Notes under the pieces: model-generated
Databases searched by the model: none
Seen by the model: the letters and a program-made list of their open reading frames with translations, nothing else
What the model was told of the DNA's origin: nothing
Made by a program: the position numbers and the translations under genes
NCBI GenBank assembly: GCA_002753135.1
Contig: PDZV01000031.1
Location: 1-46,881 of the forward strand
Direction of reading: 5' to 3'
Length of the DNA stretch: 46,881 nucleotides
Source of the DNA: Magnetococcales bacterium WMHbinv6
Lineage (GTDB): Bacteria > Pseudomonadota > Magnetococcia > Magnetococcales > Magnetaquicoccaceae
Part shown: piece after piece, positions 14,553 to 40,656 of the stretch
How the letters are laid out: the number at the start of each line of letters is the position of its first letter
Numbering within the stretch: position 1 is the first letter of the stretch

Positions 14553-14612
14553 AGCGAAGGCCGTTATTGTGGGCAGTCCATTGCACTCACCGTCAACAGG
14601 AAATGGCCACTC

Positions 14613-17477: not shown

Positions 17478-18134
17478 CTACCCCTCTGCCTCAACCATCA
17501 ACGATTGCAACAAAAGACAGGCATGATTGCCTAACGGCGTCAAGGTATACAGTTTTTCCTGTGTTTGTTGTACCAAGCCAGCCTCCTTCAAGGTGCGCAA
17601 ATGAAACATTGTCTTGGTGTGATCATCGATCTCGATGGCAATACTGATATCGGTCAAACGCATCGCATTGGCTTGCCCCATCAATTCAATTATCCGCCGT
17701 CTGGTTACGTTTGCCAGAGAAGTCAATGTTTTATCCAGACTGCCCACCTTGATTTTCCGTTCAAAACGGGCCTCTTCCAAAGAACGACGGACCGCAGCAA
17801 GCAACTCCTCGGCGCGAAAAGGTTTCGCCAAATAATCGGAAGCCCCTTTACGCACAGCGTAGACGGCTGTTTCCAAGGTCGCAAAAGCTGTGATGAAGAC
17901 AAAACGGGTCGTTTTATTCAAACGGCGCATCTCCAGCATGGTTTCGATCCCATCCATGCCGGGCATGATCAGGTCCAGAATCACCAAATCGAAGCGTTGA
18001 TTGTTCATGTAACTTAGCCCCTCCCCTCCGGAAGCGGCCATTTGCACTCGGAAACCTTCATGCTCCAACAACATGGCAAGGTTTTCACGCAGGTCATCTT
18101 CGTCGTCCACCAACAACAAATGCGCTGCTGTCAT
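17478..18134 (-). CDS. Response regulator with ArsR-like C-terminal domain (paralogue 1)
   Basis: A 218-residue two-component regulator. The receiver domain occupies residues 1-120, with acidic pocket VDDED (about 9-13), phospho-acceptor Asp54 in LVILDLIMPGMDG, Thr82 and Lys104 (AKPFR). The C-terminal 95 residues are not an OmpR, NarL or NtrC output domain. They read SLANVTRRRIIELMG ... LTDISIAIEIDDHTKTMFHLRTLKEAGLVQQ, resembling an ArsR-type winged helix. It is closely similar to the regulator at 28340. No kinase gene is adjacent, so it is an orphan that may share the kinase downstream of its paralogue. GGGGAGG before the ATG at 18134 fixes the start. Confidence 0.9.
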   Translation of the reverse strand: MTAAHLLLVDDEDDLRENLAMLLEHEGFRVQMAASGGEGLSYMNNQRFDLVILDLIMPGMDGIETMLEMRRLNKTTRFVFITAFATLETAVYAVRKGASDYLAKPFRAEELLAAVRRSLEEARFERKIKVGSLDKTLTSLANVTRRRIIELMGQANAMRLTDISIAIEIDDHTKTMFHLRTLKEAGLVQQTQEKLYTLTPLGNHACLLLQSLMVEAEG

Positions 18135-18195
18135 GATTTGACCTCCCCCACAGACTCTTGCCAACGGTACGATGACCACCGTTGCCATTGCACAT

Positions 18196-18203
18196 CAATA
18201 TTG
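18196..18203. promoter_or_regulatory. Palindrome CAATATTG upstream of response regulator 1
   Basis: A perfect 8-bp palindrome, about 60 bp upstream of the regulator start. It shares CAAT/ATTG half-sites with the larger palindromes at 18298, 18356 and 22523-22556. Possible autoregulatory operator, by similarity only. Confidence 0.3.
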
Positions 18204-18285
18204 TTCGGCAATCATACATTCTTGAACAGGTAATCTATCAAACATGCTTTCCTTATTGCAATCAACAAACATTGAGGAGAAGAAC

Positions 18286-18507
18286 ATGTTATCATATTTC
18301 AATAAAATTGAACCAAAATTAAACAAAATTTTCATTTGTAACCTTAATGATAACAAATTCAATATTTATTCGATTGAATTTTCTATCAAGGCCGAATACC
18401 ATCTCGCACTGTTTATTGAGGTGCAAAAAAAATTTATCAAAATGATTAGCACCATACCTTTCAAACACTTGCTCTATCGCTCACGATGCAAAAATCGACC
18501 TTTTTGA
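18286..18507 (+). CDS. Possible small hypothetical protein
   Basis: A 73-residue frame starting MLSYFNKIEPKLNKIFICN, rich in Lys, Ile, Asn and Phe. The ATG at 18286 has a well-placed GAGGAGA Shine-Dalgarno, which is the main reason to list it. An upstream in-frame ATG at 18244 has no such site. No signal peptide, domain or known family was recognised. Base composition is far more AT-rich than neighbouring genes. Two inverted repeats lie inside the frame, which weakens the coding case. It could be a transferred small gene, or simply AT-rich regulatory DNA. Confidence 0.35.
   Translation: MLSYFNKIEPKLNKIFICNLNDNKFNIYSIEFSIKAEYHLALFIEVQKKFIKMISTIPFKHLLYRSRCKNRPF
18298..18312. promoter_or_regulatory. 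Inverted repeat TTCAAT-3-ATTGAA
   Basis: Six-base arms separated by AAA, about 330 bp upstream of the channel gene and just inside the possible small ORF. Resembles the TCAATTAAATTGA element at 22544-22556 before the fused DUF1538 gene. Candidate binding site for one of the paralogous regulators. Confidence 0.35.
18356..18380. promoter_or_regulatory. Inverted repeat AATTCAAT-9-ATTGAATT
   Basis: Perfect 8-base arms with a 9-nt spacer. The centres are about two helical turns apart, as expected for a dimeric DNA-binding protein. Shares the TTCAAT half-site with the repeat at 18298. It lies within the doubtful small ORF. Confidence 0.35.
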
Positions 18508-18644
18508 TCCACCCGTTCACCGACTTGTCGATTTTTCCAAGTCTGCCGATCAACGCGTCTGGCTTCTCAACCAAAAAGGTTCATCGACCGACTGACAGTT
18601 CGGACAAACGATACCCCCGCGCAAACGGCCAAGGTTGACACGAC

Positions 18645-20177
18645 ATGCATGGCGAGGAAGGGTTTGCCGCAACAACAAGACGTTTGTTGCATTATCTTCT
18701 TGAGGATCCAGAAAGCGCGGCACGCAAGCGTGTGGATATTGCCCTCTCCGCCATGGTGCTGCTCTCGGTAATGGTCTGGATACGCCTGAGCGATCCGCTG
18801 ATCACGGATCAAAACAGACTGGCTTTGCAACAATTACAATTGTTATGCGTGATTCTCTTCTCTCTTGAGTATTTTTGTCGTTTGTGGTTATCGAGCCCCT
18901 TTTGGCCAGATTGTCTCAACGCCTATCAACGCAGTCGCAGACGCCGCCACGCCACTCTTTTTGTTGCAATTGGTTACGCTCTAAAAAAGGCTTTATACAA
19001 TAAACTATTATGGATAATAAAGCCGCTATCCGTCATTGATCTGATTGCCTGCATGCCTGTTTTGCAAATTTTTCGAGACATTCCAATACTAGGCATTCTC
19101 TGCTTATTGAAAGTATTTCGTTATTCACGGCACTTGGCTGCACTAAAAAAAACCATACCGGGACATTTTCTCGAACTGCTTCCGGTACTGGTATCGACGG
19201 TACTGCTCTGGAGTCTGGTAGCCATTGCTTTTTATGTGGTTGAAAAAGAGAGCAACCCTCGCCTCATCTCCCTCTGGGATGCCTTCTACTGGATGTTTGT
19301 GACCGTCACCAGCGTGGGTTATGGTGATATCGTCCCATCAACCACCAGTGGCCAATTTGTCGCCATGGCCGGTGTATTGACTGGCATCGCCATCACCACC
19401 AGCATAACTCTTATTCTTGTCTCGTCTATCACAAATCGCATATTACTGATGCGTGAATCGCGCATCGAATACCGCATCGATCAGTTAAATAAATACTATA
19501 TTATTTGCGGACTTTCTGAAATGGGTCGCATCGTGTGCAACAACATGACCACGGAAAAAAAGCCATTTGTTGCCATTGATCACCAACCGGATCGGGTTGA
19601 AGCCGCACGGCGACAAGGATGGCTGGCTTTGCATGGTTCCCTTCAGGATGAAGAGACATGGAATCGGCTTAATCTCGGCAAAGCGGTCGCCGTCATTATC
19701 ACCCTGCACGACGAAATCACCACCATATCCATCACCCTGATTGTGCGTGAACGCTCTCGACATTGCAATATCGTCGCCTGCGCCTCCAACCCTGCCGCAG
19801 AGAAACAATTACTTAAATTGGGGGTAAACCGAGTCGTTTCCCCCATCCGTGTCAGTGGCCTGCAAATGACACACTCTGCCCTGCGACCAACCGCAGTCCA
19901 CTTTCTTGACCGCATTCTGACCACCGAATTTGCCGATATGGAAATGGATGAGTTTACCCTGCCTCCCCTCTCCATCTTTGAGGAGTGTGCGCTGCAAGAA
20001 ACCAATATACGAAACAAATTCAATATTATCGTTGTTGGCATTCAACCAAAAAGAGGGATCATGCATTTTAATCCGCGCGCTGATGTCATCCTGCGACCAG
20101 GAGATACCCTGCTCTGTCTTGGACACAAAGACGACATTAACCGCTTACGGGAAACCGTTCTTTCTGAAACATATTGA
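18645..20177 (+). CDS. Voltage-gated-type K+ channel with RCK (TrkA-N/TrkA-C) domains
   Basis: A 510-residue membrane protein. Six membrane segments are suggested: S1 about 31-48, S2 about 62-82, S3/S4 about 128-168 with scattered Arg/Lys, S5 about 176-199 and S6 about 237-261. The pore loop carries the K+ selectivity filter TSVGYGD at residues 222-228. The cytoplasmic half is a RCK domain (from YYIICGLSEMGRIVCNNM, about 284) plus a TrkA-C domain. The dinucleotide loop is GLSEMG, not the canonical GxGxxG, so ligand binding may differ. This architecture gates K+ flow in response to nucleotides or ions. It heads the plus-strand block of DUF1538 and PII-like genes, ending 65 nt before the first of them. 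Confidence 0.92.
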   Translation: MHGEEGFAATTRRLLHYLLEDPESAARKRVDIALSAMVLLSVMVWIRLSDPLITDQNRLALQQLQLLCVILFSLEYFCRLWLSSPFWPDCLNAYQRSRRRRHATLFVAIGYALKKALYNKLLWIIKPLSVIDLIACMPVLQIFRDIPILGILCLLKVFRYSRHLAALKKTIPGHFLELLPVLVSTVLLWSLVAIAFYVVEKESNPRLISLWDAFYWMFVTVTSVGYGDIVPSTTSGQFVAMAGVLTGIAITTSITLILVSSITNRILLMRESRIEYRIDQLNKYYIICGLSEMGRIVCNNMTTEKKPFVAIDHQPDRVEAARRQGWLALHGSLQDEETWNRLNLGKAVAVIITLHDEITTISITLIVRERSRHCNIVACASNPAAEKQLLKLGVNRVVSPIRVSGLQMTHSALRPTAVHFLDRILTTEFADMEMDEFTLPPLSIFEECALQETNIRNKFNIIVVGIQPKRGIMHFNPRADVILRPGDTLLCLGHKDDINRLRETVLSETY

Positions 20178-20242
20178 TAATGATTACAGATATAAAGATC
20201 ACCATGCCGCCCATTATTGACCCTATCAGGAGTTGAATCTTG

Positions 20243-21028
20243 ATGCTACCGACTCAATATAAACAATACGACTGGCTGTATCGAAACCCGCTTATGGTCC
20301 CCTTTCTGTGGGTAAAGGAGGCCATTCGTGATCTGCTTCCTATCGTCGCCGTGATCACCATTTTCCAACTCCTTGTCTTGCAGAAACCTTTTCCTGACTT
20401 GGGCAACATGTTGCTCGGCGTGCTGCTGTTGATCCTGGGCATGACCTTTTTCGTGCGTGGCCTGGAAATGGGGCTCTTTCCACTTGGTGACACCTTGGCC
20501 TATGCTCTGGTCCGTCGAGGCAGCCTTTTTTGGCTTTTGACTTTCGCTTTTACCATGGGTTTTTCCACCACAATCGTCGAACCCGCGCTGATCAGCATCA
20601 GCAACAAAGCCGCCGAAGTGGCTGCCCAAGCCCAATTGATCGGCCAAACCCCTGACGAACAAATAGGTTATGCGCGCATGTTGCGCATTGTCGTCGCCAT
20701 TTCTGTTGGCACGGCTTTATTGTTTGGTGCCTTGCGCATCGTGCGTGGCTGGCCGATTCACCACCTGATCATCGGCGGCTATCTGCTGATTGTTCTGATC
20801 ACCCCCTTTGCCCCGCAGGCAATCATCGGCATTGCCTACGATTCTGGCGGCGTTACGACCTCTACGGTTACCGTTCCTTTGACTGCAGCCCTGGGTGTTG
20901 GTTTGGCGAATACGATTCGTGGGCGCAACCCATTGATTGATGGCTTCGGCCTGATTGCCTTTGCCTCGTTAACACCGATTGCTTTTGTCATGATCTATGG
21001 CATCCTTCTTTTTGGATGGAGAGGATAA
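20243..21028 (+). CDS. DUF1538 membrane protein, single module (first half)
   Basis: A 261-residue polytopic membrane protein, about seven hydrophobic segments. Two DUF1538 signatures are visible: a STTIVEPALISISNKAAEVA box (EPA about residues 113-115) and IAYDSGGVTTSTVTVPLTAALG further on. Both recur in the next gene and twice in the protein at 22727. The family is a putative transporter of unknown substrate. AGGAG at 20228-20232 precedes both ATG 20243 and an in-frame TTG at 20240; I take the ATG. The stop is 4 nt before the next DUF1538 gene, so the pair is co-translated and probably forms a heteromer equivalent to the fused protein. Confidence 0.9.
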   Translation: MLPTQYKQYDWLYRNPLMVPFLWVKEAIRDLLPIVAVITIFQLLVLQKPFPDLGNMLLGVLLLILGMTFFVRGLEMGLFPLGDTLAYALVRRGSLFWLLTFAFTMGFSTTIVEPALISISNKAAEVAAQAQLIGQTPDEQIGYARMLRIVVAISVGTALLFGALRIVRGWPIHHLIIGGYLLIVLITPFAPQAIIGIAYDSGGVTTSTVTVPLTAALGVGLANTIRGRNPLIDGFGLIAFASLTPIAFVMIYGILLFGWRG

Positions 21029-21032
21029 TCGC

Positions 21033-21890
21033 ATGGAGTTGCTTGAATTTCTCTTAAAAACGCTTCTTGCGACCAGCGCCAACCTGCTGCCCATCGTGGT
21101 GGTTCTGATCGGCTTTCATCTGTACGTCCTCAAACAACCTTTGCCTAATTGGCGCAAAATAGCCATTGGTATTCTCTATACGTTAATCGGTCTGGTCTTT
21201 TTTATTGCCGGGTTGGACAAATCGCTGTTTCCGATCGGTGAACTGATGGCCACCCAACTCTCCGATCCACAGTTTCTATTCGGAACGGCAGAAACACCTC
21301 CCGACACCTCGTGGTGGGCTTATGCTTGGATCTATCTTTTTGCCGCTTCGGTTGGCTTCGCGACCACCTTGGCGGAACCAGCTTTGCTGGCCGTGGCCAT
21401 CAAAGCCTCCGAAGTTTCGGCAGGAGCCATTAAACCTTTACCTTTGCGCATTGCCGTTGCCTGCGGTGCCGCTTTCGGTATCGCCTTGGGAACCTTTCGC
21501 ATCATTAGCGGCATTCCACTCTACTATTTCATCTTTGTTGGTTATTGCGTTGTCATTCTGCAAACCAAACTTGCCCCGCGCATGATTGTCGGTTTGGCCT
21601 ACGATTCGGGCGGTGTGACCACTTCTACCGTCACCGTCCCTTTGGTCGCTGCCCTGGGTCTGGGTCTCTCCTCTGTCATTCCCGGGCGCAACCCGGTTGT
21701 CGACGGTTTCGGCATGATTGCCCTTACCTGCCTCTTTCCCATGATTACCGTCATGGGCTATGCTCAATTGACCGAGTGCCTCTCCCTGCGCGCCGTAAAC
21801 CGGCGCAAAAATGCCCCACCCCTCCCCAAACGGTGTGGATTGGGTAAACGCCTCCAACAGCCTTCGCAAAAAGGAGATTTTCAACCGTGA
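21033..21890 (+). CDS. DUF1538 membrane protein, single module (second half)
   Basis: A 285-residue polytopic membrane protein with the same two signatures as its neighbour: ATTLAEPALLAVAIKASEVS and LAYDSGGVTTSTVTVPLVAALG. Compared with the preceding protein it has a longer loop after the third segment and a basic Arg/Lys/Pro-rich cytoplasmic tail (about 40 residues, from LRAVNRRKN). The start at ATG 21033 follows GAGAGG; the upstream extension of the frame overlaps the previous gene and is rejected. Its stop overlaps the GTG start of a PII-like gene by 4 nt. That coupling parallels amtB-glnK and suggests the PII-like protein regulates this membrane complex. Confidence 0.9.
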   Translation: MELLEFLLKTLLATSANLLPIVVVLIGFHLYVLKQPLPNWRKIAIGILYTLIGLVFFIAGLDKSLFPIGELMATQLSDPQFLFGTAETPPDTSWWAYAWIYLFAASVGFATTLAEPALLAVAIKASEVSAGAIKPLPLRIAVACGAAFGIALGTFRIISGIPLYYFIFVGYCVVILQTKLAPRMIVGLAYDSGGVTTSTVTVPLVAALGLGLSSVIPGRNPVVDGFGMIALTCLFPMITVMGYAQLTECLSLRAVNRRKNAPPLPKRCGLGKRLQQPSQKGDFQP

Positions 21891-22237
21891 AATTCAAGAT
21901 GGTCATCATTATCACTGCCAGCGAACTGGCCGACCAACTGGTCGATATCGCAAAAAAAGCCGGTGCTACCGGTGCCACCATCGTTCCCGGTCGGGGAACG
22001 GGTATCCACGAAGCCCTGACCTTTTTTGGCCTCTCTTTGGATAGCCAACGCAGTATCATTCTGACCGTCGTTTCCGAAGCCTGCGCCGCTGCCGTACTCT
22101 ATGCCGTGCGCGAAGAGGGCAACTTCAAAAAACCGGGAACCGGTATCGCCTTCTCCTTCCCCCTTGACCATGTCCTGGGCATGGAGAGCCAAATCGCACA
22201 TATGGATTGTGATATGCCGGATGAACCCTCTTCCTGA
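21887..22237 (+). CDS. PII-like signalling protein (GlnB-like fold), copy 1
   Basis: A 116-residue cytoplasmic protein, probably a trimeric PII-like nucleotide sensor. The N-terminal beta strand KFKMVIIITASELADQLVDIAKKAGATGATIVPGRGTG matches the first PII half. The second half reads RSIILTVVSEACAAAVLYAVREEGNFKKPGTGIAFSFPLDHVLG. The T-loop is short, lacking the uridylylated Tyr region of GlnB/GlnK, so classical nitrogen control is unlikely. The start is GTG 21887, inside the stop of the DUF1538 gene, with an AAGGAG site 9 nt before it. It is the first of three PII-like genes in the block. Confidence 0.82.
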   Translation: MKFKMVIIITASELADQLVDIAKKAGATGATIVPGRGTGIHEALTFFGLSLDSQRSIILTVVSEACAAAVLYAVREEGNFKKPGTGIAFSFPLDHVLGMESQIAHMDCDMPDEPSS

Positions 22238-22284
22238 GCAATCGGCCACTCTTGCCACTCGCCACCCTTCTGCATGTTCTGCAG

Positions 22285-22350
22285 CAAAGCGGCACGGTGC
22301 CTGAATATTCCGACTGCACAGGCTCCTCTGCTCACCACCGTGCCGCTTTG
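22285..22350. repeat. Perfect 15-bp inverted repeat with 36-nt loop
   Basis: Left arm CAAAGCGGCACGGTG (22285-22299) is the exact reverse complement of the right arm CACCGTGCCGCTTTG (22336-22350). It starts about 48 nt after the stop of the PII-like gene. There is no U-tract after it, so it is not a standard intrinsic terminator. It may be a mRNA-stabilising hairpin, an unusual terminator, or the footprint of a small mobile element. Confidence 0.6.
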
Positions 22351-22522
22351 GCAACTTATCTCCTACACCTGATCCGTATACTTTACCTGCTCCCATCAAA
22401 GCATCACCCTTTGCGCCATGCCGGCGCGACAGTTTTTTCCCGCTTTTTATACCATGATTCAACTATTTTGAATAACAATCAAATCAATCACGACAATAAC
22501 ACAATAAACATAGAGTGCAATC

Positions 22523-22579
22523 ATCAATTAATTGATCTGACATTCAATTAAATTGATATATATTTATATTGTATACAAT
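22523..22579. promoter_or_regulatory. Cluster of three palindromes upstream of the fused DUF1538 gene
   Basis: Three symmetrical sites in 57 bp: ATCAATTAATTGAT (22523-22536, perfect), TCAATTAAATTGA (22544-22556, symmetric around one central A) and ATTGTATACAAT (22568-22579, perfect). They lie 150-200 bp before the start codon in very AT-rich DNA. The first two share a CAATT/AATTG core and sit 20-21 bp apart centre to centre, so two dimers could bind on the same helix face. Plausible operators for the ArsR-like response regulators. Confidence 0.5.
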
Positions 22580-22726
22580 CTTATCTTGATAAATAATCCC
22601 GGAGCTGTTTTTTGTACCACATTGTTTGCCGTTTTCTGCAAACAGGATACAGCGAATAGAATGACCTATTTCTATCAATCCATTCATCTTTCCATTATCC
22701 CTTTCAATCGGTGTGGAGCCATCATA

Positions 22727-24496
22727 ATGACCCAAGAGATTCGCTACGGAGAGTTCCAGCGAAGATGTGACGCCGAACAGGAGCAGATCAGTTACAACCG
22801 TCTGACTCCCACTGTCAAAAAAGAGAGCAACGGCAAAATCATCCCGCATATTCATCCTCCCATCGTCCTGCGACCACTGGATGTCTACCGTCTGCTGAAA
22901 AATTACACCTCGCCACGATTCATGGACCAACTGCGTGCCGTGGTGCCGCTGGCGATCTATCTGGTTCTTTTTCAGATTTTCATCCTGCGCGAACTGATCA
23001 CCGACTCCTGGATCATCACCGGTGGTCTGTTGATGGTGATCGTGGGCCTGATGTTTTTCATGGAAGGGTTGCGCCTGGGATTGATGCCCTTCGGCGAGGT
23101 GATCGGCAACACGCTGCCACGCAAATCCAAACTGCCTGTCGTGCTGCTGATCGCCTTTCTGCTGGGTGTCGGCGTCACCTTTGCCGAACCGGCGATTGGT
23201 GCTTTGAAAGCGGTTGGTTCAATCATTCAGGTGGAACGCGCCCCTGTCCTCTATGCCCTCCTGAACGAATGGTCAACGGCTCTGGTGCTGGTTGTCGGTG
23301 GTGGCGTCGGTCTGGCCGCCATTCTGGGCACCTTGCGCTTTCTCTATGCCTGGAGCTTGAAGCCGCTCATTTACTATTCGGTCATTCCTGGCGTGCTGTT
23401 TTCTGCCGCAGCCATGCTGCACCCGGAAGTCAATAAAGTGTTGGGGCTGGCCTGGGATTGCGGTGGTGTGACGACGGGTCCGGTCACGGTGCCTCTTGTG
23501 CTGGCGCTCGGTATCGGTATCGCTTCCGCCGCCGGTAAAGGGGACAACCCCATGTCCGGTTTCGGAATCGTCACCCTGGCCTCTGTTTTTCCGGTGATCG
23601 GCGTCATTGCTCTGGGCTTTGTCGTCGCCTGGACCAGTACCCCTCAGGAAATTATCGCCGCTGCCAAAATTGCCGCTGCCGCTGTTCCCAGTACCCCTGC
23701 CTGGTACGAAGAGAGCCCGGGCATCGATGCCATCCTTGGGGTGCGCGCCATCCTGCCGCTGGTTATCTTTCTCTTTATTGTCCTGAAGGTGGTCCTCAAG
23801 GAACCGGTTCGCAATGGTGGCATGTTGGCTTACGGTATTCTGCTGGCCATTGTCGGTATGGTCACTTTCAATATCGGTTTGACCTACGGTTTGGCCAAGC
23901 TGGGCAGCCAGTCGGGATCACTGGTTCCTGCTGCGTTTATGAACATTAAAGAGGTTGCGTTGTCCCCTCTGTATTCTTACAGCCTCGGCCTCACACTGGC
24001 CGTGCTGTTCGCCTGGTTCCTCGGCTTTGGTGCAACGCTCGCAGAACCCGCCCTTAACGCCTTGGGTGCCACCGTGCAAAATCTGACCAACGGTGTCTTT
24101 AAAAAATCGTTGCTGATGTATGCGGTCTCAATCGGCGTCGCCTTCGGTATTGCCATCGGTTTGCTGAAACTGATTTTTGACTTGCCTATCTTTTGGATGT
24201 TGTTGCCAGGCTATGTTGTGGCAATTGTCCTGACCTATTTCTCAAGTGAAGAGTTTGTCAACATTGCCTGGGATTCGGCAGGTGTTACCACCGGTCCCAT
24301 CACGGTGCCTCTGGTCCTGGCCATGGGACTTGGTTTCGGTAATGTCACTGGCGTTATCGAAGGATTTGGCATCCTCACGATGGCATCTGTCTGCCCGATC
24401 ATCTCGGTCATGATTACCGGTCTGTGGGTGCGCTACAAAGCCGCGCAACAAACGGACGAATCTCTCTCTTCCAGCCTGGAGGCCGCAGCACTATGA
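22727..24496 (+). CDS. DUF1538 membrane protein, fused double module
   Basis: A 589-residue membrane protein made of two DUF1538 modules in tandem. Module 1 carries VTFAEPAIGALKAVGSII and LAWDCGGVTTGPVTVPLVLALG. Module 2 carries GATLAEPALNALGATVQ and IAWDSAGVTTGPITVPLVLAMG. About 60 soluble residues precede the first membrane segment (RAVVPLAIYLVLFQIFIL). This is the one-gene counterpart of the split pair at 20243 and 21033. Repeated EPA and D-x-G/A-GVTT boxes suggest an inverted- or tandem-repeat transporter core. The start is ATG 22727 after GGAG; the longer upstream frame crosses AT-rich non-coding DNA. The stop overlaps a PII-like gene by 4 nt. Confidence 0.9.
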   Translation: MTQEIRYGEFQRRCDAEQEQISYNRLTPTVKKESNGKIIPHIHPPIVLRPLDVYRLLKNYTSPRFMDQLRAVVPLAIYLVLFQIFILRELITDSWIITGGLLMVIVGLMFFMEGLRLGLMPFGEVIGNTLPRKSKLPVVLLIAFLLGVGVTFAEPAIGALKAVGSIIQVERAPVLYALLNEWSTALVLVVGGGVGLAAILGTLRFLYAWSLKPLIYYSVIPGVLFSAAAMLHPEVNKVLGLAWDCGGVTTGPVTVPLVLALGIGIASAAGKGDNPMSGFGIVTLASVFPVIGVIALGFVVAWTSTPQEIIAAAKIAAAAVPSTPAWYEESPGIDAILGVRAILPLVIFLFIVLKVVLKEPVRNGGMLAYGILLAIVGMVTFNIGLTYGLAKLGSQSGSLVPAAFMNIKEVALSPLYSYSLGLTLAVLFAWFLGFGATLAEPALNALGATVQNLTNGVFKKSLLMYAVSIGVAFGIAIGLLKLIFDLPIFWMLLPGYVVAIVLTYFSSEEFVNIAWDSAGVTTGPITVPLVLAMGLGFGNVTGVIEGFGILTMASVCPIISVMITGLWVRYKAAQQTDESLSSSLEAAAL

Positions 24497-24852
24497 AACA
24501 ACGTAACATCACTATCTTGACCGACTTGGCCATGATCACCTGCATCGTGCAGCGCGGCAACGGCGATGGCATTGTCTCTGCCGCCCGCGATGCCGGGGCG
24601 CAGGGTGCCACGATCTACTATGCACGCGGCAGTGGTGTCCGTGAACGCCTTGGCATGCTTGGTGTGACCGTCGAAGTCGAAAAGGAGGTGGTGCAAATCA
24701 TCGTCTCCACCGACCAGCTCGACACCGTTTTCAATACCGTCTACCTGGCCGGCAATTTTGATACCCCTGGCATGGGCTTCATGTACGTTGTGCCTCTCAG
24801 CAAGGCTGCAACCTATATTCCTCAGGAAGTGCTGGCCAAATTCCGGCAATAG
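24493..24852 (+). CDS. PII-like signalling protein, copy 2
   Basis: A 119-residue PII-like protein. The segment GDGIVSAARDAGAQGATIYYARGSGVRERLGMLGVTVEVEKEVVQIIVS contains the same GAxGATI...RGSG box as copy 1. It is followed by TDQLDTVFNTVYLAGNFDTPGMGFMYVVPL, the PII second half. A canonical long T-loop with Tyr51 is not present. The ATG at 24493 overlaps the stop of the fused DUF1538 gene (ATGA), which argues for a physical or regulatory partnership. AGGAGAG after it leads into copy 3. Confidence 0.82.
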   Translation: MKQRNITILTDLAMITCIVQRGNGDGIVSAARDAGAQGATIYYARGSGVRERLGMLGVTVEVEKEVVQIIVSTDQLDTVFNTVYLAGNFDTPGMGFMYVVPLSKAATYIPQEVLAKFRQ

Positions 24853-24861
24853 GAGAGCGTT

Positions 24862-25251
24862 ATGAACAGCACGGTGTTACCAGCCATTGCCCAACACGCC
24901 AACGCAGGGGCGTTGATTACCTGTATTCTTCCCGAAGACGGCACCGATCATGAATTGTTGCAAAAACTGAGAAAAGAGAAAGGTATCATCACCGCCAACA
25001 GCCAGTCGTGCCAGGGCATATCCATTCTCTCTCTGCTGCCCAAAGAGGGCAAGGGAAACAAGGCACCTGTGGCCGAAGGGGTGCGCATTGTCTCCATAGC
25101 CGTGCCAACGGATCAGGTTGCTGCCATGTTTGATTACGTCTGTGATACGGCCAAGATTGATCGGCCTATGGGAGGGGTGGTCCTGCTTGGTCCGTTACAT
25201 GGTTTTACACCATTTCTGCTCCCGGAAGGAGTGGAAGACGAACAGGATTGA
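24862..25251 (+). CDS. PII-like signalling protein, copy 3 (divergent)
   Basis: A 129-residue protein placed 9 nt after copy 2 with an AGGAG site. The layout resembles PII: an N-terminal strand (GALITCILPEDGTDHELLQKLRKEKGIITANSQSCQGIS), a basic loop (LPKEGKGNKAPVAEG) and a second half (VRIVSIAVPTDQVAAMFDYVCDTAKIDRPMGGVVLLGPL). The GATGATI-type box of copies 1 and 2 is replaced by KGIITANSQSCQG, so ligand binding has probably changed. It may form mixed trimers with copy 2 or act as a second sensor. It ends just before a 16-bp stem hairpin. Confidence 0.7.
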   Translation: MNSTVLPAIAQHANAGALITCILPEDGTDHELLQKLRKEKGIITANSQSCQGISILSLLPKEGKGNKAPVAEGVRIVSIAVPTDQVAAMFDYVCDTAKIDRPMGGVVLLGPLHGFTPFLLPEGVEDEQD

Positions 25252-25265
25252 TCCGTAGCACCAGA

Positions 25266-25306
25266 CGCATAGACCGTCTGCAGCTTCTGGGCAGACGATC
25301 TATGCG
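25266..25306. terminator. Hairpin with 16-bp stem after the PII-like genes
   Basis: CGCATAGACCGTCTGC (25266-25281) pairs with GCAGACGATCTATGCG (25291-25306), one mismatch, 9-nt loop. It begins 15 nt after the stop of PII-like copy 3. No T-run follows, so it may be an atypical terminator, a transcript-processing signal or an operator rather than a strong intrinsic terminator. Confidence 0.5.
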
Positions 25307-25374
25307 CACAATCTGTGATCAAGCCAACTTTTATTTTGATACCTGTCATTCTCTGCAGCCAGAAAGGAACCAAG

Positions 25375-25674: not shown

Positions 25675-25762
25675 TTCCGGGTCAATAACACAGCATACTT
25701 TCCACTGCTCCGCAATACGTCCATTGCTTTTTGACCCTGTTGCGCATGGGAAAGTGTTTTCG

Positions 25763-27739
25763 ATGGGTCTTGCCACCGATATTATCGTCATCGTCATCGC
25801 CGCCCTGATTGGTGGCACCATCGCCCATCTGCTCCGCCAGCCACTGATCATGGGCTATATTCTGGCGGGCATTGTGGTGGGACCCCATACGGGCGGGGTA
25901 ACGGTCACGCAAATTCATGACATCGAATTGTTGGCTGAAATCGGTGTTGCCCTGCTGCTGTTTGCCCTGGGACTGGAATTTTCCTTCAAAGAGCTGCAAC
26001 CGGTACGCAAAATTGCCTTGCTGGGCACCCCCTTGCAAATGGCCTTGTCCATGCTGCTCGGCTATGGGGCGGCCCGCCTGCTCGGTGTCTCCTGGCAGGC
26101 CAGCCTGTGGTTTGCGGCCATGGTGGCCCTCTCCAGCACCATGGTGATTTTGAAAACTTTGATGAACCAGGGGTGGATGGGCACCCTCTCCAGCCGGGTG
26201 ATGATCGGTATTCTGATTGTCCAGGATCTGGCCGTCGTGCCGATGATGATCATTCTGCCACAACTCAACCAGCCCAACCTGGACTATTCCATTCTGGCAT
26301 TGGCTGGTCTGAAAGCGGTGCTGTTTCTGCTCGGCATGTTTTTTGTTGGCGTTCGCCTGATCCCCTGGTTGATGCGGCGCATTGCACTCTGGAACTCGCG
26401 GGAAATTTTTTCTCTGGCCCTGCTCGCGGTCGGTCTGGGCGTCGGTTATATCACCTATCTCTCAGGGCTCTCCTTCGCGCTCGGTGCCTTTGTTGCCGGT
26501 ATGGTACTGGGCGGCTCCCACTTTGGCCATCAGGCCCTCAGCGACGTGACCCCGGTGCGCGATCTGTTCGCCATGCTCTTTTTTGTCTCCGTCGGCATGA
26601 TGCTGGACCCCTATTATCTGCTTGATCATGCGGCAGTGATCTTCTCGCTGGTCTTTTTGGTCACCCTCGGCAAGGCGGCAATTCTGTTTCTGCTCAGTCG
26701 ACTGTTCGGCTATGGCAATGTGATTCCTCTCGCCGTTGGTCTCGGCCTGTGCCAGATCGGCGAATTTGCCTTTGTTCTGGCCAAAACAGGACACGGCAGC
26801 GGTGCCCTGGATGATGCTGCCTATGCCCTCTTTCTTTCGGTCACCATCGTCACCATGCTGCTGACCCCCTCTCTGTCCGGGTTGACCACACGGATCTATC
26901 GCTTTTGGAAGAAAAAAAGAAAATCTCCGCCTCGTTCCACCTTCAACGTGCGCAGCAAAGAACTCAATGGCCACTGTCTGATCGTCGGGGGTGGGCGCGT
27001 CGGCGAACAGGTGGCATCCCTGCTGCAACAAATCCATACCCCCTGCCTGATCATCGAACTGGATCAACGACGGGTCGAATCCCTGGCCAAAGCCGGCCTG
27101 CCGACCCTGTTTGGAGATGCCACACAACCTGCCGTCCTGGAGGCAGCACATCTCTCCGATGCGGCCCTGCTGCTGCTGACCATCCCGGATCTGAATACCG
27201 CCTCCCTGGTGATTGCGCAGGCCAAACAGCAGCGCCCCTCCCTGGACACGGTTGCCCTGGTCTCGGCGCTGGATCAATTTCAGGCCCTGCATCAACTCGG
27301 TGTCCAACAACTGGTTTGGCCACATCTGGAAACCGGGCTGGAAATGAGTCGGCGCGCCTTGGCACTGCTGCAGACCCCTCCTTCGCTGATCCATCAACTG
27401 ACCAGCCAGGCCAGGGAAAAACTCTCCGATGCCCTCTGCCCCGGACAGGATGCCTCTGCGCAAGCCAGCCGATCCTTCAGCAATCTGTTTGACCTGGAAT
27501 GGATCACCTTGCCAACAGACTCCCCCCTGGCCCAGCAGACCATTCGCGACCTGGCCGTGCGCAGCACCTTCGGCGTATCGATTGTTGGCGTGGTGCGGCA
27601 ACAACAACTGCACAGCAACCCCGAAGCCGATTTTCTGTTGGCAAGCGGAGACAGTATTGCCATCATTGGTCAACAGCAATCCCGTAGCGCTTTTCGGCTT
27701 TGCGCCATGGCTTTGACCTCCACAGGAGAACCCTCGTGA
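25763..27739 (+). CDS. Kef-type monovalent cation:proton antiporter (CPA2) with RCK domains
   Basis: A 658-residue inner-membrane transporter. Twelve or so membrane segments (residues 1-385) carry the Na+/H+ exchanger fold: [56 protein letters not shown] and [22 protein letters not shown]. The cytoplasmic half contains a TrkA-N domain with an intact dinucleotide motif ([17 protein letters not shown]) and a TrkA-C domain at the end. This matches KefB/KefC/YbaL-like proteins that control K+/H+ exchange. The frame is open further upstream, but that stretch overlaps the DUF4347 gene in another frame, so ATG 25763 is chosen. The stop overlaps the next start (GTGA). Confidence 0.93.
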
Positions 27740-28296
27740 CTGCACTGCGTTTATATCCCCTGCTTGCCGCCGTGACTGCGGCCCTGGCTTGCCCGGCGGT
27801 CAGCAGCCATGCCATGGAATATCCGCTTCTGAGCCAGGGCCAGACGGTTTATATTCCGGTCTACTCCTCGGTCTACTATGGCAATATCGATGAACGCGGA
27901 CAACCGAAAGAGATTCTCCTCTCCTCCATGTTGAGTGTGCGCAATACCGATCCCCAGCATGGCATGACCATTCAATCGGTGACCTATTACGATACGCACG
28001 GACGCCCGCTGCGCGAATATCTTAAACAACCCCATATGTTACAACCAATGGGATCAACAGATTTTTTTGTGGAATACCGGGAACGCTCCGGCGGCACCGG
28101 AGCCAATTTTATGGTCACCTGGCAGGCAACGCGCCCCATCAATCAGCCGATCATGGAGACCATCCACGTCTTCAGCTGGGGCGCTCAATCGCAATCCTTC
28201 ATCAGTCGCGGCCAAGTAATCCGGCAACAGAATGATCCTCAAGACAGCGCAGCAGAACCGGCTTGTCCCAGCGGTCCGGCACCTGCCACCCACTGA
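27736..28296 (+). CDS. DUF3124 exported protein
   Basis: A 186-residue protein with a cleavable-type signal peptide ([24 protein letters not shown]). The mature part matches DUF3124: [40 protein letters not shown], then a [19 protein letters not shown] and a [18 protein letters not shown] block. It would be periplasmic; the function is unknown. The start is GTG 27736, overlapping the antiporter stop by 4 nt, with AGGAG 5-6 nt before it. Coupling to a Kef-type antiporter suggests an accessory or sensor role. It ends 43 nt before the convergent response regulator. Confidence 0.85.
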
Positions 28297-28339
28297 TTGT
28301 TTTTTCCCCACCACCCGGAGAAAGCAAAAATGGCTGTTG

Positions 28340-28999
28340 TCAACCGTTTTCACTGCTGTGCAGCAGTCGCATCACATTGAAAGCGTTGTTGCCAGCCGGA
28401 GTCAGGGCATAGGATTTGTCATCCGGCTGATGAATCAAACCTGCCTCCTTGAGAGTGCGCAGATGAAACATGGTTTTGGTATGATCCTCAATCTCCAGCG
28501 CCTGGCTGATATCGGTCATACGCACCTGAGAAACCCGCCCCAGCAGATCAATCATGCGGCGGCGTATGGGATTGGCCAACGAAGTGAGTGTTTTATCCAC
28601 ATTTCCAGCCACAATCTGCCGCTCGAAGCGGGCCTCCTCCAATGAGCGTTTGATCACGGCCACCAACTCCTCGACCCGGAAGGGTTTGGAGAGATAATCG
28701 GAAGCCCCTTTCCGAATCGCCTGCACCGCCGTATTGACTGTGGCAAAAGCGGTCATGATGATGAAGCGTGTCTGATTGCTGAAACGACGCATCTCCAACA
28801 TGGTATCGATACCATCCTGTCCCGGCATGATCAAATCCAACAAAACAATATCAAACCGTTGTGCCGAAAACTGGCGGATACCCTCTGCCCCCGAAGCAGC
28901 CGTATGCACCACAAACCCTTCATACTCCAGGACGGAGGTCAGATTATCGCGCAGTTCTGCTTCATCATCGACAATTAATATCTGGTATCGTGCCGTCAT
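28340..28999 (-). CDS. Response regulator with ArsR-like C-terminal domain (paralogue 2)
   Basis: A 219-residue regulator closely similar over its whole length to the one at 17478. The receiver domain has VDDEAE, phospho-acceptor Asp55 (IVLLDLIMPGQDG) and Lys105 (SKPFR). The output domain reads SLANPIRRRMIDLLG and ISQALEIEDHTKTMFHLRTLKEAGLIHQ, which is like an ArsR winged helix. AGGAGG stands 8-10 nt before the ATG at 28999. The start lies 35 nt inside the upstream kinase gene, so kinase and regulator are translationally coupled and are very probably a cognate pair. The conserved DHTKTMFHLRTLKEAG segment is the likely DNA-recognition region. Confidence 0.92.
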   Translation of the reverse strand: MTARYQILIVDDEAELRDNLTSVLEYEGFVVHTAASGAEGIRQFSAQRFDIVLLDLIMPGQDGIDTMLEMRRFSNQTRFIIMTAFATVNTAVQAIRKGASDYLSKPFRVEELVAVIKRSLEEARFERQIVAGNVDKTLTSLANPIRRRMIDLLGRVSQVRMTDISQALEIEDHTKTMFHLRTLKEAGLIHQPDDKSYALTPAGNNAFNVMRLLHSSENG

Positions 29000-31028
29000 C
29001 GTTTTCTCCTCCTGTTTTTGCCGGTCGCAAAGGAAAGCGTATCATCACCTTGACTCCCCCTTCCGGGGCATTGATCACTTCGATTGAACCACCCTGCTGA
29101 CGCAAAATACTGTAACAAATCGGCAATCCCAAGCCAACACCTATACCGGAACGCTTGGTGGTAAAAAACGGCTCAAAAATTTTCGACAACAGATGCGCTT
29201 CAATACCGCTGCCATGGTCCGCCACCACCGCTTCGATCCACTCTCCCTGCTGGCAAACGGTCAGTCGAACCGGCAGATCCGGCGGGGAGGCATCCAAGGC
29301 ATTTTGGATCACGTTGCGAAAAACCTGCCCGAGTTGGATCCGATCTCCCACCATCGGCAAGGTGGCGGGCAAATCCAGGCAAATTGCCCGCTCCGGGGCA
29401 ACCGAGTGCATCACTTCGGCAATTTCTCTGATCTCTTCGCACAGATCAAAGGCATACCGATCCGCTTGCCCGGTCCAGGAGTAGGTCAACATTTCCCTTG
29501 CCACCCGCGTTGCCCGGGCAATATTGCCCTCCACCTGTTCCAGACGGCGTTGCACCGGTCCCTGGCAAATATCCGGCGGCAACAACAAGCGGATATTGTG
29601 CAAGCCAACCGCTGCCGTGGCCAGCGGATTGTTGATCTCATGTGCCACCCGTACGGCAAACTGCCCGATTCCGGACATTTTTTCCGCCACAATCAACATG
29701 CGCCGCAATTCGGCACGCTCCTGCAGGGCCAATAACAACTGCTGCATGGCATTCAACAAACGATCTTGCGGGGAACGGGCTTGCACGGTCAATGACAAAT
29801 CATCCTGGGCCAAGCGCTCGGCCATCTGCGCCACATATCTTTCCGCCTGCACCAATCTTTCAACCGCCAGCCGCAAGCGGGCAAACTCATCCCCGGACTC
29901 TTCGGCTGCTTCCACTTTGGCAGGGGTAATATCCCCCAAAGCCACTGTTTCCAAACGCTGCACCGCCCACGACAAACCACGATGCACATCCCGGGCAATC
30001 CGCCACGAAACCATTACCCCGATGACGATACTGAAGGCCAGGATTATCCACAACAGGCGCGTGGCCATGCGAAATTCGCGCTCTGATTGCCCTTTCGCCT
30101 CTTGCATCAACCGTTCGCTGGTCTGCATCAGGCTGCGCAACTCGCCGCTCAACCGGACCATCAACGGCCAGCTCCGATCGTGCGATAGACGGGTGGCCCG
30201 CAAATTGGTGCTTTGCTGACTCAACTGACGCAACTGACGAGAAATCGACAAATAGTGTTGCAATCGACTCTCCCATTGGCTGATCCATGGCCGATAGCCA
30301 TCGGGCAACCAGTGCAACAAGGCCTGGTGCGTTTGCAGCAGCACCTGCTCCTGCGCCGCCAGCGAAGCAAGAAAATGGTCTATCCGCCCTGCATCCACCG
30401 CCAACAGCAAATTCAGCTCCTGATTGAACAGATTTTTCAGAATCCGCTGCATCGATCTGGCCAGACGCAATCTCTCTTCCTGCCATACAGCCCCTTTGCC
30501 CGTCCCCTCATAGTCGGGATCACTTTCCATTTGCCGAACCAACAGATCCAGCGACTCCTCCGCCTGCAACATGGCCTTTTGCCCCTGTTGTTCGGCCAAC
30601 TGGGCGGCCAAAACATTGGAGTTGAGCATCCCCAGCCGTTGCACCTCCCAGTCGATGACCATCATTTCGGTCACCAATCCTTCGATACGTTGCAGCACCT
30701 GTTGCTCTTCCTCACTGAGATGCCGCACCCAGAGTTGATCCAAAGACCTCCGCACCTGCTCGATATGGCAGGTCATCTCGTTGGCAAAGTGCATCATTTC
30801 ATCCTGTTCGATCAACAGGATAATACTCCGTTCCGCGTTGGAGACCCCCAGCAGACTTTTTTCCAGCAGCGAAACCAGGCGCACTTTTTCCATATCTTCT
30901 TCGACCAGCAGATTGACACGATCATTCAACTGACCGAGCATGCCCACCGCCAACAATGCCGACACCAGCAAACAGAGCAGCAAAAAGATAAATCCGGCAT
31001 ATAAACGAAAACGGATCGAGAGAACCAT
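28965..31028 (-). CDS. Membrane sensor histidine kinase
   Basis: A 687-residue kinase. There is one N-terminal membrane segment (about residues 8-30) and a long helical periplasmic sensor of about 300 residues rich in Gln, Leu and Arg. A second membrane segment (LLWIILAFSIVIGVMVSW) and a HAMP linker follow. The H-box VRVAHEINNPLATAAVG gives phospho-acceptor His463, with N-box NVIQNALDAS and G-boxes VADHGSGIEAH and GIGVGLGLPICYSIL. It belongs to the HPK4/NtrB-like group by its HEINNP box. It lies upstream of and overlaps response regulator 2, and downstream (11 nt) of the PhnD-type hybrid kinase in the same transcript. Confidence 0.92.
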   Translation of the reverse strand: MVLSIRFRLYAGFIFLLLCLLVSALLAVGMLGQLNDRVNLLVEEDMEKVRLVSLLEKSLLGVSNAERSIILLIEQDEMMHFANEMTCHIEQVRRSLDQLWVRHLSEEEQQVLQRIEGLVTEMMVIDWEVQRLGMLNSNVLAAQLAEQQGQKAMLQAEESLDLLVRQMESDPDYEGTGKGAVWQEERLRLARSMQRILKNLFNQELNLLLAVDAGRIDHFLASLAAQEQVLLQTHQALLHWLPDGYRPWISQWESRLQHYLSISRQLRQLSQQSTNLRATRLSHDRSWPLMVRLSGELRSLMQTSERLMQEAKGQSEREFRMATRLLWIILAFSIVIGVMVSWRIARDVHRGLSWAVQRLETVALGDITPAKVEAAEESGDEFARLRLAVERLVQAERYVAQMAERLAQDDLSLTVQARSPQDRLLNAMQQLLLALQERAELRRMLIVAEKMSGIGQFAVRVAHEINNPLATAAVGLHNIRLLLPPDICQGPVQRRLEQVEGNIARATRVAREMLTYSWTGQADRYAFDLCEEIREIAEVMHSVAPERAICLDLPATLPMVGDRIQLGQVFRNVIQNALDASPPDLPVRLTVCQQGEWIEAVVADHGSGIEAHLLSKIFEPFFTTKRSGIGVGLGLPICYSILRQQGGSIEVINAPEGGVKVMIRFPLRPAKTGGENDDGTIPDINCR

Positions 31029-31039
31029 GGCTCTCTTGC

Positions 31040-34036
31040 TCAGGATTGCACAACAGAAAGTGAGGAGAAGGAAAGCCTGTTTTCCAACGTATCGGCCACC
31101 TGTTGGATCACCGCCAGGAAGGTCTGTTTATCGATCGGCTTGGTTAAATGGTCGTTGCAGCCGGCAGCCAGACTTTCCGCCCGCTTGGCATGCGAGGCAT
31201 GGGCACTCAAGGCAATAATGATGGTCGGCAAGAGCGACTGCTGCTTTTCCCAATGCCGAATCGCCTGTGTCGCCGCATAACCATCCATCACCGGCATTTG
31301 AATATCCATCAGAATCAGGTCAAAATGTTGCTCCTGCACCCTTTGCACCGCCTGTTGACCATCGGTCACCATGGTCAATTGATGGGGCGTTTGTTTCAGG
31401 AAGATGCGAAACAGGGTTTGATTATCCACCCGATCTTCGGCCAATAAAATCGCCAGCGATCGACTGCTGTGCGCAACCGCCTGGCTGCCCGTGCCGGTTG
31501 CCGCCAACAGTTGCGACGGTTTGCCGATTGGCAGGGTAAACCAAAAGGTGCTGCCCTCTCCAACCCGGCTCTGCACCCCCATGACCCCACCCATCAGCTC
31601 CACCAGACGCCGGGAGATGGCCAGCCCCAATCCCGTGCCGCCATAACGACGGGTAATCCCGGAATCGGCCTGGGTAAAACGCTTGAAAATCAGATCCAAA
31701 TGGTCGGCGGCGATGCCAATGCCGCTATCGTGGACGCGAAACAACAGCCGCTCTTCATCTTCTGGATCACGCAACAGCTCGACCGTAACCCCCCCTTGCT
31801 GGGTAAACTTGATGGCATTGCCCAATAAATTGACCAACACCTGGCGCAGACGGCCATCATCGCCAAACAACTGCGCCGGAATCGTTTCAGCAATCTCCTC
31901 ATTGAGAAAAATTCGATTGTTTTCGATAGCCATCCGCATCAGACCGGTGGTCTCTTCCACCACTTGGCGCGGCGAATACAACAGCTCCGACAGGGCAAAA
32001 CGACCCGACTCAATGCGGGAAAAATCCAGCACATCGTTGATCACCCCCAGCAACGCCTTGCCGGAGCGGTGCATGGTCTGCACAATCTGTCGCTGCTCTT
32101 CCTCCAGGGCACTCTCCAACAGCACCTCCATTATGCCCAACACCACATTCATCGGCGTGCGGATCTCATGGCTCATCGCCGCCAGAAAATCTCCCTTGGC
32201 CTGATTGGCGGCTTCCGCCTGCTGCTTGGCCACCGCCAACTCGGCAACGACCTGCATTCGCTCACTGATATCCATGGCCACCGTACAGAGTGCATACGGT
32301 TTCTCTTCGTCCGTCAACAAGGGAAAAGCAATCATCAGATAGGTGTGTTCCGTCCCATCCGGATGGATCAACCTCTCTTCCGCCTGTACCGGGGCCAACT
32401 GCGCCAACACCTGACGATCCAGAGCCAACAGACGATTGACCACCTCCTGCGGATGGTGTTGCGTCAAGTTCCAGCCAAATTTCTCCTCCTCGCTCAACAT
32501 GAACAGTCGCTTGTACTGCCGGTTGACCTGGACCAGCTGGCCCTGTAAATCCTTGAGCATCAGCAATAACGGGGTATGGTTCAAAATATCCTGCAGACGG
32601 CGCTCACTCTCCCGCAACGATTTTTCCATCGCTTTGCGCAAGGAAATATCCTGCAAAGCGATCACCACCCCGGAAGGGGTCAACTCCGGCTGAATGGCGG
32701 TCACCAGCCAATGCACCGGCACCTGCCTGCCGTCGCGGGTCAACAATAATCCTTCATTTTCCCGCTGCTTACCATCATGGATGGTGCGATCAATTGGCGA
32801 GTCGCCCGCCTGATATTCGCTGCCATCCCAGCGCCGACAGCGAAACAGAAGATGCACCGGCTTGCCGATCACCTCCTCCTGACGATAGCCGGTCAACACC
32901 AAGGCGGCGGAATTGATAAAGATGCAATACCCCTGGGCATCCCCTCCCAATACCCCTTCGCCCAAACTTTCCAGCAGAATATTGCGCACTCCCAACCGTT
33001 TGGTCTCCGCCAAAGCACGCATCAACAGCCTTTTGCTGCGTTGCAAACGCAACACCAGCAACAGGGCGGAAAACAACAACACCATCAACACAGAGACGAT
33101 CAATAACGTATATTTCGCAAACACATCCTCCCAGTCGAAATCGATCCGATCCGGGTTGGTACGCAAACGGGTCATTATCGCCTCAACTGCCGTATAGTTG
33201 GCGGGCGGTGAAAAACCGTAATAGTTGCCCTTGCTGGCTGGCAGAGAGTCCGGGGTAATGGCCAACAAAGCCAGTGTCACCTCTTTGACCAGCGTATCCG
33301 GCAGGTTGGGCATGGCCGAAAAAGGCCATTCCGGATAGAGATCGGTGGAGAGCAGTTGCGGAAAAGATGACCCGCTCTGGACGTTGAGAATGCGCACGCT
33401 GGGCAACTCCAAACGGTTTTCCCGGATCAGGGCTTCCAGCACACCGGTGCGGACAAAACCGGCATCGACCCGGCGACCCAACACCTCTGGCACCACTTTA
33501 TCGTGCGGCATGCCGGTGTAGCGCATCTCCAGATCCCGCGACGTATTGACACCAACCTTGCGCAATGTCCAGGCCTGCATCAAATAGCCACCCATCGAAC
33601 GTTCGTCGACGGCGGCTATCTTTTTTCCTTTCAAATCTTTTAAACCTTGCAGATCATGGCGGTCGGAACGGACAAAAATCACCCCACCAAACTGATTGAC
33701 AGGATGACCATCGGCCAAGGTGATCACGGTTGCCAGCGGGGTAAGATGCTGGCGATGGCGCAGCAAAACAAAATGTTCCGGGTTGGTCAGAATAAAATCC
33801 ACCTCAGCACGGGAAGCCGCCCGATCCAAATCGGAAAAATAATAGGGAACAATTTTAAATTGTTTTCCAGGCAACCGCGAAGACAACCATTCGGCTGTCG
33901 GGGACCACATGCGTATCGTCTCTGACATGGAGCGAAAAGAAAGCACCCCAACACGCACCTCCTCCATGGCTTGCAGAGGAGAAGAAAAAGTCAAGAGAGA
34001 TAATAAAAAAAGCAAGCAAAACAAACGACTCAGCAC
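31040..34036 (-). CDS. Hybrid sensor kinase with PhnD-like periplasmic domain, PAS domains and receiver
   Basis: A 998-residue hybrid kinase. A signal or anchor segment ([15 protein letters not shown]) leads into a PhnD-type substrate-binding domain of about 250 residues ([20 protein letters not shown] ... GGVIFVRSD ... [14 protein letters not shown]). A membrane segment ([19 protein letters not shown]), two PAS domains and HisKA follow, with His623 in [10 protein letters not shown]. The ATPase domain has GNAIKFT, DSGIGI and GTGLGLAIS, and the C-terminal receiver has Asp911 in [13 protein letters not shown]. PhnD domains bind phosphonates, phosphite or other oxyanions, so the ligand is probably a small anion. 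I prefer GTG 34036 preceded by a G-rich site; ATG 34078 would add 14 residues before the signal. Confidence 0.93.
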
Positions 34037-40653: not shown

Positions 40654-40656
40654 CGC

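Follow-up and report, generated by a model that had tools for sequence, protein, structure and literature searches.

Gene content of the locus

The window analyzed here is the whole stretch of 46,881 nucleotides (nt) of contig PDZV01000031.1 from Magnetococcales bacterium WMHbinv6, whose genome is 3.84 Mb in size and lies on 80 contigs. It contains a 16.5 kb region in which genes of DUF1538 membrane proteins are directly followed by genes of small PII-like proteins. Two such units are found: a split one, in which an UmpA-like and an UmpB-like gene precede one PII gene (PII1), and a fused one, in which a double DUF1538 gene, named umpF here, precedes two (PII2 and PII3). Both arrangements, umpA-umpB-PII and fused umpAB-PII2-PII3, are old and widespread, and it is their meaning that we discuss below.

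The region was first described from its letters only, and all of the genes named in that original prediction are present. Pfam searches gave the four DUF1538 modules (the split pair and the fused double), the RCK channel, the Kef-type antiporter with its RCK domain and the DUF3124 protein, and a domain search confirmed the kinase and the hybrid kinase with a PhnD-type sensor on one side. The two response regulators that had been called similar are 64% identical to each other, with ArsR-like output-domain matches below the cut-off. Three PII-like proteins had been counted; PII1 and PII2 are recognized by Pfam (cut-off for the P-II family, 25 bits) and PII3 by its predicted structure. The two 4-nt overlaps between PII genes and DUF1538 stops can be read directly in the sequence: the GTG start of PII1 shares GTGA with the umpB stop and the ATG start of PII2 shares ATGA with the umpF stop. 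The region had also been described as one plus-strand block. The strand and the genes are as described, yet the block is probably not a single unit but is divided into three transcription units, the spacing being 489 nt ahead of umpF and 511 nt ahead of the Kef gene.

Table 1. Features of the 16.5 kb region, with the two DUF1538-PII units first (positions in the window)
Feature	Position	Strand	Evidence and remarks
UmpA-like DUF1538 protein (split pair)	20240-21028	+	PF07556, 221 bits; NCBIfam UmpA, 326 bits
UmpB-like DUF1538 protein (split pair)	20997-21890	+	PF07556, 215 bits; NCBIfam UmpB, 307 bits
PII1, PII-like	21887-22237	+	Pfam P-II, 38.7 bits; GTG start
UmpF (name used here), fused double DUF1538	22727-24496	+	two PF07556 stretches, 352 bits
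PII2, PII-like	24493-24852	+	Pfam P-II, 34.9 bits; ATG start
PII3, divergent PII-fold protein	24862-25251	+	predicted structure
Possible transcription stop between the antiporter units	22285-22429	+	pattern matches only
RR1, response regulator, ArsR-like output	17478-18188	-	Response_reg, 107.7 bits; DUF7347/HTH_20 below cut-off; facultative neighbour
Six-transmembrane (6TM) potassium-type channel with RCK (TrkA_N/TrkA_C) domain	18645-20177	+	Pfam
Kef/YbaL-type CPA2 antiporter with RCK domain	~25763-27739	+	Pfam/NCBIfam; third set
DUF3124, probable exported protein	27700-28296, likely start GTG 27736	+	PF11322, 146 bits; third set
RR2, response regulator, ArsR-like output	28340-28999	-	DUF7347/HTH_20 below cut-off; third set
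Histidine kinase, 4HB_MCP sensor	28965-31028	-	third set
Hybrid histidine kinase, PhnD-type periplasmic sensor	31040-34078	-	third set

The DUF1538 proteins

Each of the four DUF1538 domains in the window matches PF07556 with 175 to 221 bits (cut-off 22.6 bits). When compared with the NCBIfam models, the two split genes score best to UmpA and then to UmpB, in that order, and in UmpF the UmpA model finds its best stretch in the N-terminal half and the UmpB model in the C-terminal half. UmpF also has an N-terminal extension of about 60 residues, which is conserved in alignments of 10 and of 50 sequences.

The substrate had been called unknown in the original prediction, which is wrong at the level of the family. 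In the accessible text of PMC5484666, UmpAB of Halomonas zhaodongensis, a DUF1538 heterodimer, is described as a Na+(Li+,K+)/H+ antiporter that is active from pH 6.5 to 9.5, and this activity was obtained with co-expression of umpA and umpB only. A PII protein is thus not a needed subunit there. In the accessible part of PMC13255231, DUF1538 is listed among the top 20 Pfam families that predict growth pH. The window proteins belong to the same Pfam family as UmpAB, and its A and B proteins are paired as in the split pair; one of the two window systems differs by being fused and by its N-terminal extension. From these family relations, the split pair likely shares the substrate of UmpAB, and UmpF may share it too, with less certainty.

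Structure comparison added little to this assignment. The UmpF model is of middling quality (pLDDT 78.9, pTM 0.76) and Foldseek found no match for it in the PDB at E<=0.001. The best row of the VIA comparison was a Na+/Ca2+ exchanger (3v5u; Z 5.9, root-mean-square deviation 5.6, 170 aligned residues), which does not stand out clearly from rows of unrelated proteins. Profile-profile comparison of DUF1538 and UmpF with 30 proteins of the CaCA family gave probabilities of only 0.2% and 0.3%, and the DUF1538 profile found no credible relative among the PDB sequences (4 matches, best E 0.12).

Linkage of DUF1538 and PII genes

The coupling of DUF1538 with PII genes is near-obligate and recurs across many bacterial groups. 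DUF1538 matches are found in 28 of the 48 genomes of the order, and 39 loci including the window were obtained, 21 of them split and 18 fused; three short fragments were left out of this census (G105:C93, G109:C330 and, on the margin of contig G081:C21, the start of an UmpA-like gene). PII1 follows the pair in 19 of the 21 split loci and the pair carries one PII, while each of the 18 fused genes is followed by both PII2 and PII3. The original prediction had likened this arrangement to glnK following amtB; the linkage is indeed tight and was seen at nearly every locus tested.

A scan that went beyond the order, to genome contigs worldwide, gave 358 confirmed UmpF relatives, and the best 80 were examined. 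Clustering reduces these 80 to 75 groups at 95% identity and to 68 at 90%; the stretches on which the 80 lie are at least 10 kb long in 56 cases and at least 20 kb in 27. PII2 was found in 79. Two PIIs are present at 77 loci, and at the remaining three (L120, L140 and L148) the contig breaks off where the missing PII gene is expected. At three loci (L117, L125 and L131) the second PII fits the PII2 profile and not that of PII3. The exact 4-nt overlap of UmpF and PII2 is found in 42 of the 79 loci, a count that uses mechanically chosen starts. By their record titles, the 80 loci come from Gamma-, Beta- and Zetaproteobacteria, Bdellovibrionales, Nitrospinae, Nitrospira, Desulfobulbaceae, Helicobacteraceae/Sulfurovum and others, with a few Magnetococcales again; most are metagenome bins, the titles of which can mislead. 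For example, L088, titled Gammaproteobacteria, and L089, titled Chloroflexi, share one umpF-PII2-PII3 gene set, with UmpF at least 99% identical, so that one of the two bins is probably contaminated.

The same linkage was seen in a sample of the phylum, where DUF1538 was found in 115 of 299 genomes. A PII gene is present at 29 of the 30 best-scoring loci, 7 of which come from the order; the one miss (L032) is the same place as the order locus L051 discussed below. These 30 loci, as well as the 80 UmpF loci, are best-scoring and not random samples. In a genus with weaker DUF1538 scores a PII was found in 14 of 16 places, with the remaining two at contig ends. Plasmid records with a DUF1538 relative have a PII in nine of nine cases (seven by annotation and two by profile), these nine including two same-species pairs. 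As a control, 30 CaCA (PF01699) antiporter loci with similar flanks were taken from genomes of the same phylum (29 distinct proteins), and a PII-like open reading frame (ORF) was found at none of them.

Another form of the fused unit is seen in six Clostridial plasmid records (L166 and L169-L173). Here, the fused DUF1538 gene encodes about 500 residues and precedes a single gene for a tandem double-PII protein, which is 222-224 residues long where annotated. This protein is called P-II family nitrogen regulator in four of the six records and is unannotated in two; in L166 its first domain is weak.

It is known that PII genes can be paired with transporter genes, yet DUF1538 as the transporter partner is apparently undescribed. 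A literature search that covered few subscription papers found no report linking DUF1538 with PII; the main text of PMC5484666 contains neither 'PII' nor 'P-II', and the accessible part of PMC13255231 does not contain 'P-II'.

Three further observations were made on single loci. A conjugative plasmid of Chelativorans (L168) carries a DUF1538 pair with a PII, the first DUF1538 gene being annotated with 90 residues, so it may be broken. Mobilizable plasmids of Methylocystis (L167 and L174) carry a DUF1538 pair with a PII near transposases. In L054, a second PII1-like gene (14194-14628) lies on the opposite strand, several kb from the umpAB-PII1 unit.

The PII-fold proteins

PII proteins are well known for integrating the nitrogen, carbon and energy status of the cell; in the canonical members the T-loop tyrosine and the loop residues serve modification and nucleotide contacts. 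The genome that carries the window has two canonical PIIs elsewhere (contigs C52 and C66; loci L162 and L163), with the T-loop tyrosine in YRGAEY and with the GDGKIF and RIRTGE loops. Neither this tyrosine region nor the two loops are present in PII1, PII2 and PII3, and judged from their sequences these three are not ordinary nitrogen regulators. PII2 has a strongly conserved T-loop region of its own, GvRERLG and then EKev, in the 80 sequences compared (the window and 79 others).

PII3 gives no match in Pfam. Its AlphaFold model (pLDDT 84.6), built from 42 sequences, matches PII structures with a Foldseek probability of 1.00, the best being GlnK1 (2j9d; E 6.7e-6). As the model has the PII fold, the earlier count of three PII-like proteins was right.

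A tree of 56 rows was made from a subset, about every second sequence of the order and 8 of the 80 worldwide loci. It separates a clade of PII2 and PII3 from the rest (100/99), and PII3 forms a clade inside it (100/99). The domains of the Clostridial tandem proteins are placed with PII1, on long branches, and 13 of the 53 inner branches are open. This placement suggests that the double PII likely has two independent origins, one in the fused lineage and one in Clostridia. The two canonical PIIs also came out among the PII1 sequences, their branch being very long, thus the tree does not set the DUF1538-linked PIIs apart as a separate group.

Proposed function of the two units

We think it rather probable that the two units are paralogous PII-regulated monovalent-cation/proton antiporters, one split (UmpA and UmpB with PII1) and one fused (UmpF with PII2 and PII3), with the Kef-DUF3124 and two-component genes forming a separate third set. 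Based on the published UmpAB, the DUF1538 proteins would exchange Na+, Li+ or K+ for H+ and so control internal pH and cations. Translation of the PIIs would probably be coupled to that of the transporter on a shared message. In analogy to GlnK on AmtB and SbtB on SbtA, they would bind the cytoplasmic face of the antiporter and switch transport on or off, and such binding and gating is the most likely role that we can give them. The signal may be a small ligand, probably an adenine nucleotide, that conveys the energy or second-messenger state of the cell. One fused transporter would be served by two unlike PIIs or, in Clostridia, by the tandem double PII. We regard the channel, the Kef antiporter, DUF3124 and the two-component genes as a separate cation-related set that was placed beside the units in this genus.

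To our knowledge, few transporters are PII-gated. Two of them, which are described in the accessible text of PMC10710835, can be compared with the window: AmtB, gated by GlnK, and SbtA, gated by SbtB. In AmtB-GlnK the transporter gene is linked to a PII gene, and in the window the PII gene is directly downstream and overlapping; on the other hand, AmtB is unrelated to DUF1538 and the window PIIs are without the loops of GlnB type. SbtA-SbtB consists of a secondary transporter and a divergent PII-like protein, as in the window, but SbtA carries bicarbonate and DUF1538 is another family.

Several points weigh against this interpretation. The window proteins miss the equivalog cut-offs of NCBIfam (490 bits for UmpA and 500 for UmpB): UmpA reaches 326, UmpB 307 and UmpF 213 of 490 and 170 of 500 bits, so that their substrate could differ from that of UmpAB. 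Two split loci of the order, L048 and L051, are without a PII also after rechecking. Two fused loci of the phylum sample, L008 and L014, have a single PII, thus fusion does not force a second one. The canonical loops are absent from PII1, PII2 and PII3, which makes nucleotide binding uncertain. In the accessible text of PMC10710835 the known PII-gated transporters can work as trimers, while UmpAB is reported as a heterodimer in that of PMC5484666.

One alternative is that the PII lies downstream of the antiporter, i.e., that the transporter sequesters PII at the membrane and the PII reports the ion or pH state to cytoplasmic targets. It is known that AmtB sequesters GlnK, and the PII genes come after the transporter gene in all 79 of the best 80 UmpF loci that have one. 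Yet, no target family stands out near these loci. The largest other clusters, named from their sequences, are ABC-type ATPases (13 of 80) and response regulators (12 of 80), and both lie at scattered distances. We consider this alternative very improbable.

A broader proposal is that DUF1538-PII is a phylum-spanning class of PII-gated cation/proton antiporters, with PII2 and PII3 as a mixed gate and, independently, a tandem PII in Clostridia, in which pH and cation homeostasis is tied to an adenine-nucleotide or second-messenger signal. This we put forward tentatively, as a possibility that falls somewhat short of an even chance. If true, pH and salt homeostasis would come under PII control through a cation/proton antiporter family across several phyla, and some genes that are annotated as 'P-II family nitrogen regulator' without the canonical loops would be explained. 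The pairing suggests a widespread switch for sodium or potassium exchange.

Neighbouring genes and the nature of the fused unit

A cation theme recurs beside the fused units, with differing parts. A channel, RCK or Kef-type gene lies beside the fused unit in 10 of the 18 fused loci of the order: a Kef gene in the window and in L065, channel-like ORFs in L069 and L075-L080 and a double-RCK protein in L040. The identity of the neighbour was tested with Pfam in four of the ten, including two of the seven channel-like ORFs, both of which are Ion_trans with cNMP_binding. Among the best 80 UmpF loci, CPA1-type antiporters are found in five, two of them touching the upstream end of umpF and three lying 745-805 nt downstream; the one tested, in L127, has Na_H_Exchanger and cNMP_binding domains.

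These neighbours bear on the question whether UmpF carries cations at all. One option is that it carries an anion such as bicarbonate, with the PIIs acting like SbtB, and that cation antiport belongs to the split pair only. UmpF is distant from the tested UmpA and UmpB, as seen from its bit scores. Two Thiothrix, a Thiocystis and a Rhabdochromatium are among the best 80 UmpF loci; we take these to be sulfur oxidisers and count them in favour of this option, as we do a cluster of SulP permeases near UmpF in 6 of the 80 loci (one member Pfam-tested). SbtA, too, is regulated by a PII-like protein, according to the accessible text of PMC10710835. However, UmpF is in the same Pfam family as UmpAB, the channel, RCK or Kef-type neighbours listed above speak for cations, and no carbon-fixation gene family was seen among the recurrent neighbour clusters listed, as judged from sequences. 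Anion transport by UmpF is therefore unlikely in our view, and cation/proton antiport remains the preferred reading for both units.

Assembly of the 16.5 kb region

The original prediction had joined the DUF1538 and PII genes with the RCK transporters and the two-component genes into one module. We reject the 16.5 kb as one conserved module, as its parts separate across genomes. Among the best 80 UmpF loci a Kef-type ORF is found in two, DUF3124 in two and the RCK channel of the window in none, and in the order the window-type channel lies directly upstream of umpA in only 3 of the 21 split loci. By their domain make-up, the Kef gene and the channel are ordinary members of the Kef/YbaL CPA2-RCK antiporters and the 6TM-RCK channels, and they are neighbours outside of the conserved core.

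Genomes of the same genus show how the parts are distributed. G113, which is 95% complete and has no DUF1538 match, carries Kef-DUF3124, RR2, the kinase and the PhnD kinase (L201), followed by further two-component-like ORFs and an RND gene. G081 carries, in L065, a response regulator, UmpF-PII2-PII3-Kef-DUF3124, the kinase and the PhnD kinase; the split pair is absent from this locus, and the kinase has no regulator next to it. A short UmpA-like fragment, which lies right at one end of contig C21, suggests that G081 probably has a split unit as well, in another place; no channel was detected within 1.4 kb upstream of the fragment. In G101, channel-UmpA-UmpB-PII1 (L042) and UmpF-PII2-PII3 with a cyclic-nucleotide-gated channel (L069) are on separate contigs. 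The window combines both DUF1538 units with the third set (Kef-DUF3124, response regulator, kinase and PhnD kinase). The whole region thus looks like a genus-level assembly, a local patchwork around the DUF1538-PII units, and not like one module.

It could still be argued that the whole 16.5 kb responds to signals as a single module, with both antiporters under the control of the two-component system. L065 of G081, where a regulator and both kinases accompany the fused unit with Kef and DUF3124, would fit such a module. So would the response-regulator gene that directly follows PII1 in 8 of the 21 split loci (L035-L040, L052 and L053); however, the two of these that were tested with Pfam are of the OmpR type, a different family. 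G113 has the two-component genes and Kef-DUF3124 without a DUF1538 match, and at seven other loci of the order (L202-L208) the kinase-regulator pair is found with neither DUF1538 nor Kef in the fetched stretches, some of which are cut by contig ends; weaker regulator matches lie outside of this set. Intergenic inverted repeats and promoter and terminator scans gave nothing firm on shared regulator sites. A single module under one two-component system is quite unlikely. The original prediction had itself described what a chance cluster would look like, namely DUF1538 and PII genes without the neighbours and two-component genes that stand apart. This largely describes the large module, but not the DUF1538-PII core.

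Intergenic signals and flanking genes

Between PII1 and umpF there is a 15-bp perfect inverted repeat (22285-22299 and 22336-22350, with a 36-nt spacer), as well as a terminator-like stem (22411-22429) and a promoter-like site (22537-22564). The totals of the promoter and terminator scans are near those of shuffled sequences (22 vs 17.6 and 14 vs 12.3). In the third set, the Kef stop shares 4 nt (27736-27739, GTGA) with what is likely the GTG start of DUF3124, which suggests translational coupling of these two genes.

An IS1595-type transposase (16318-17304) adjoins RR1 and is a possible agent of local reshuffling. The gap between the phosphatase and the response regulator is about 1.2 kb in G081 and 2.2 kb in the window. 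Further to the left, an RND-type efflux set (8918-14552) was identified with Pfam as OEP, HlyD and ACR_tran, and a second RND-type set lies to the right (34490-42069), where translations alone point to two RND-like proteins and one membrane-fusion-like protein. At 4750-8019, a GmrSD_N-domain protein, an AAA_21/DUF3696 ATPase and one protein without a Pfam match may be defence genes.

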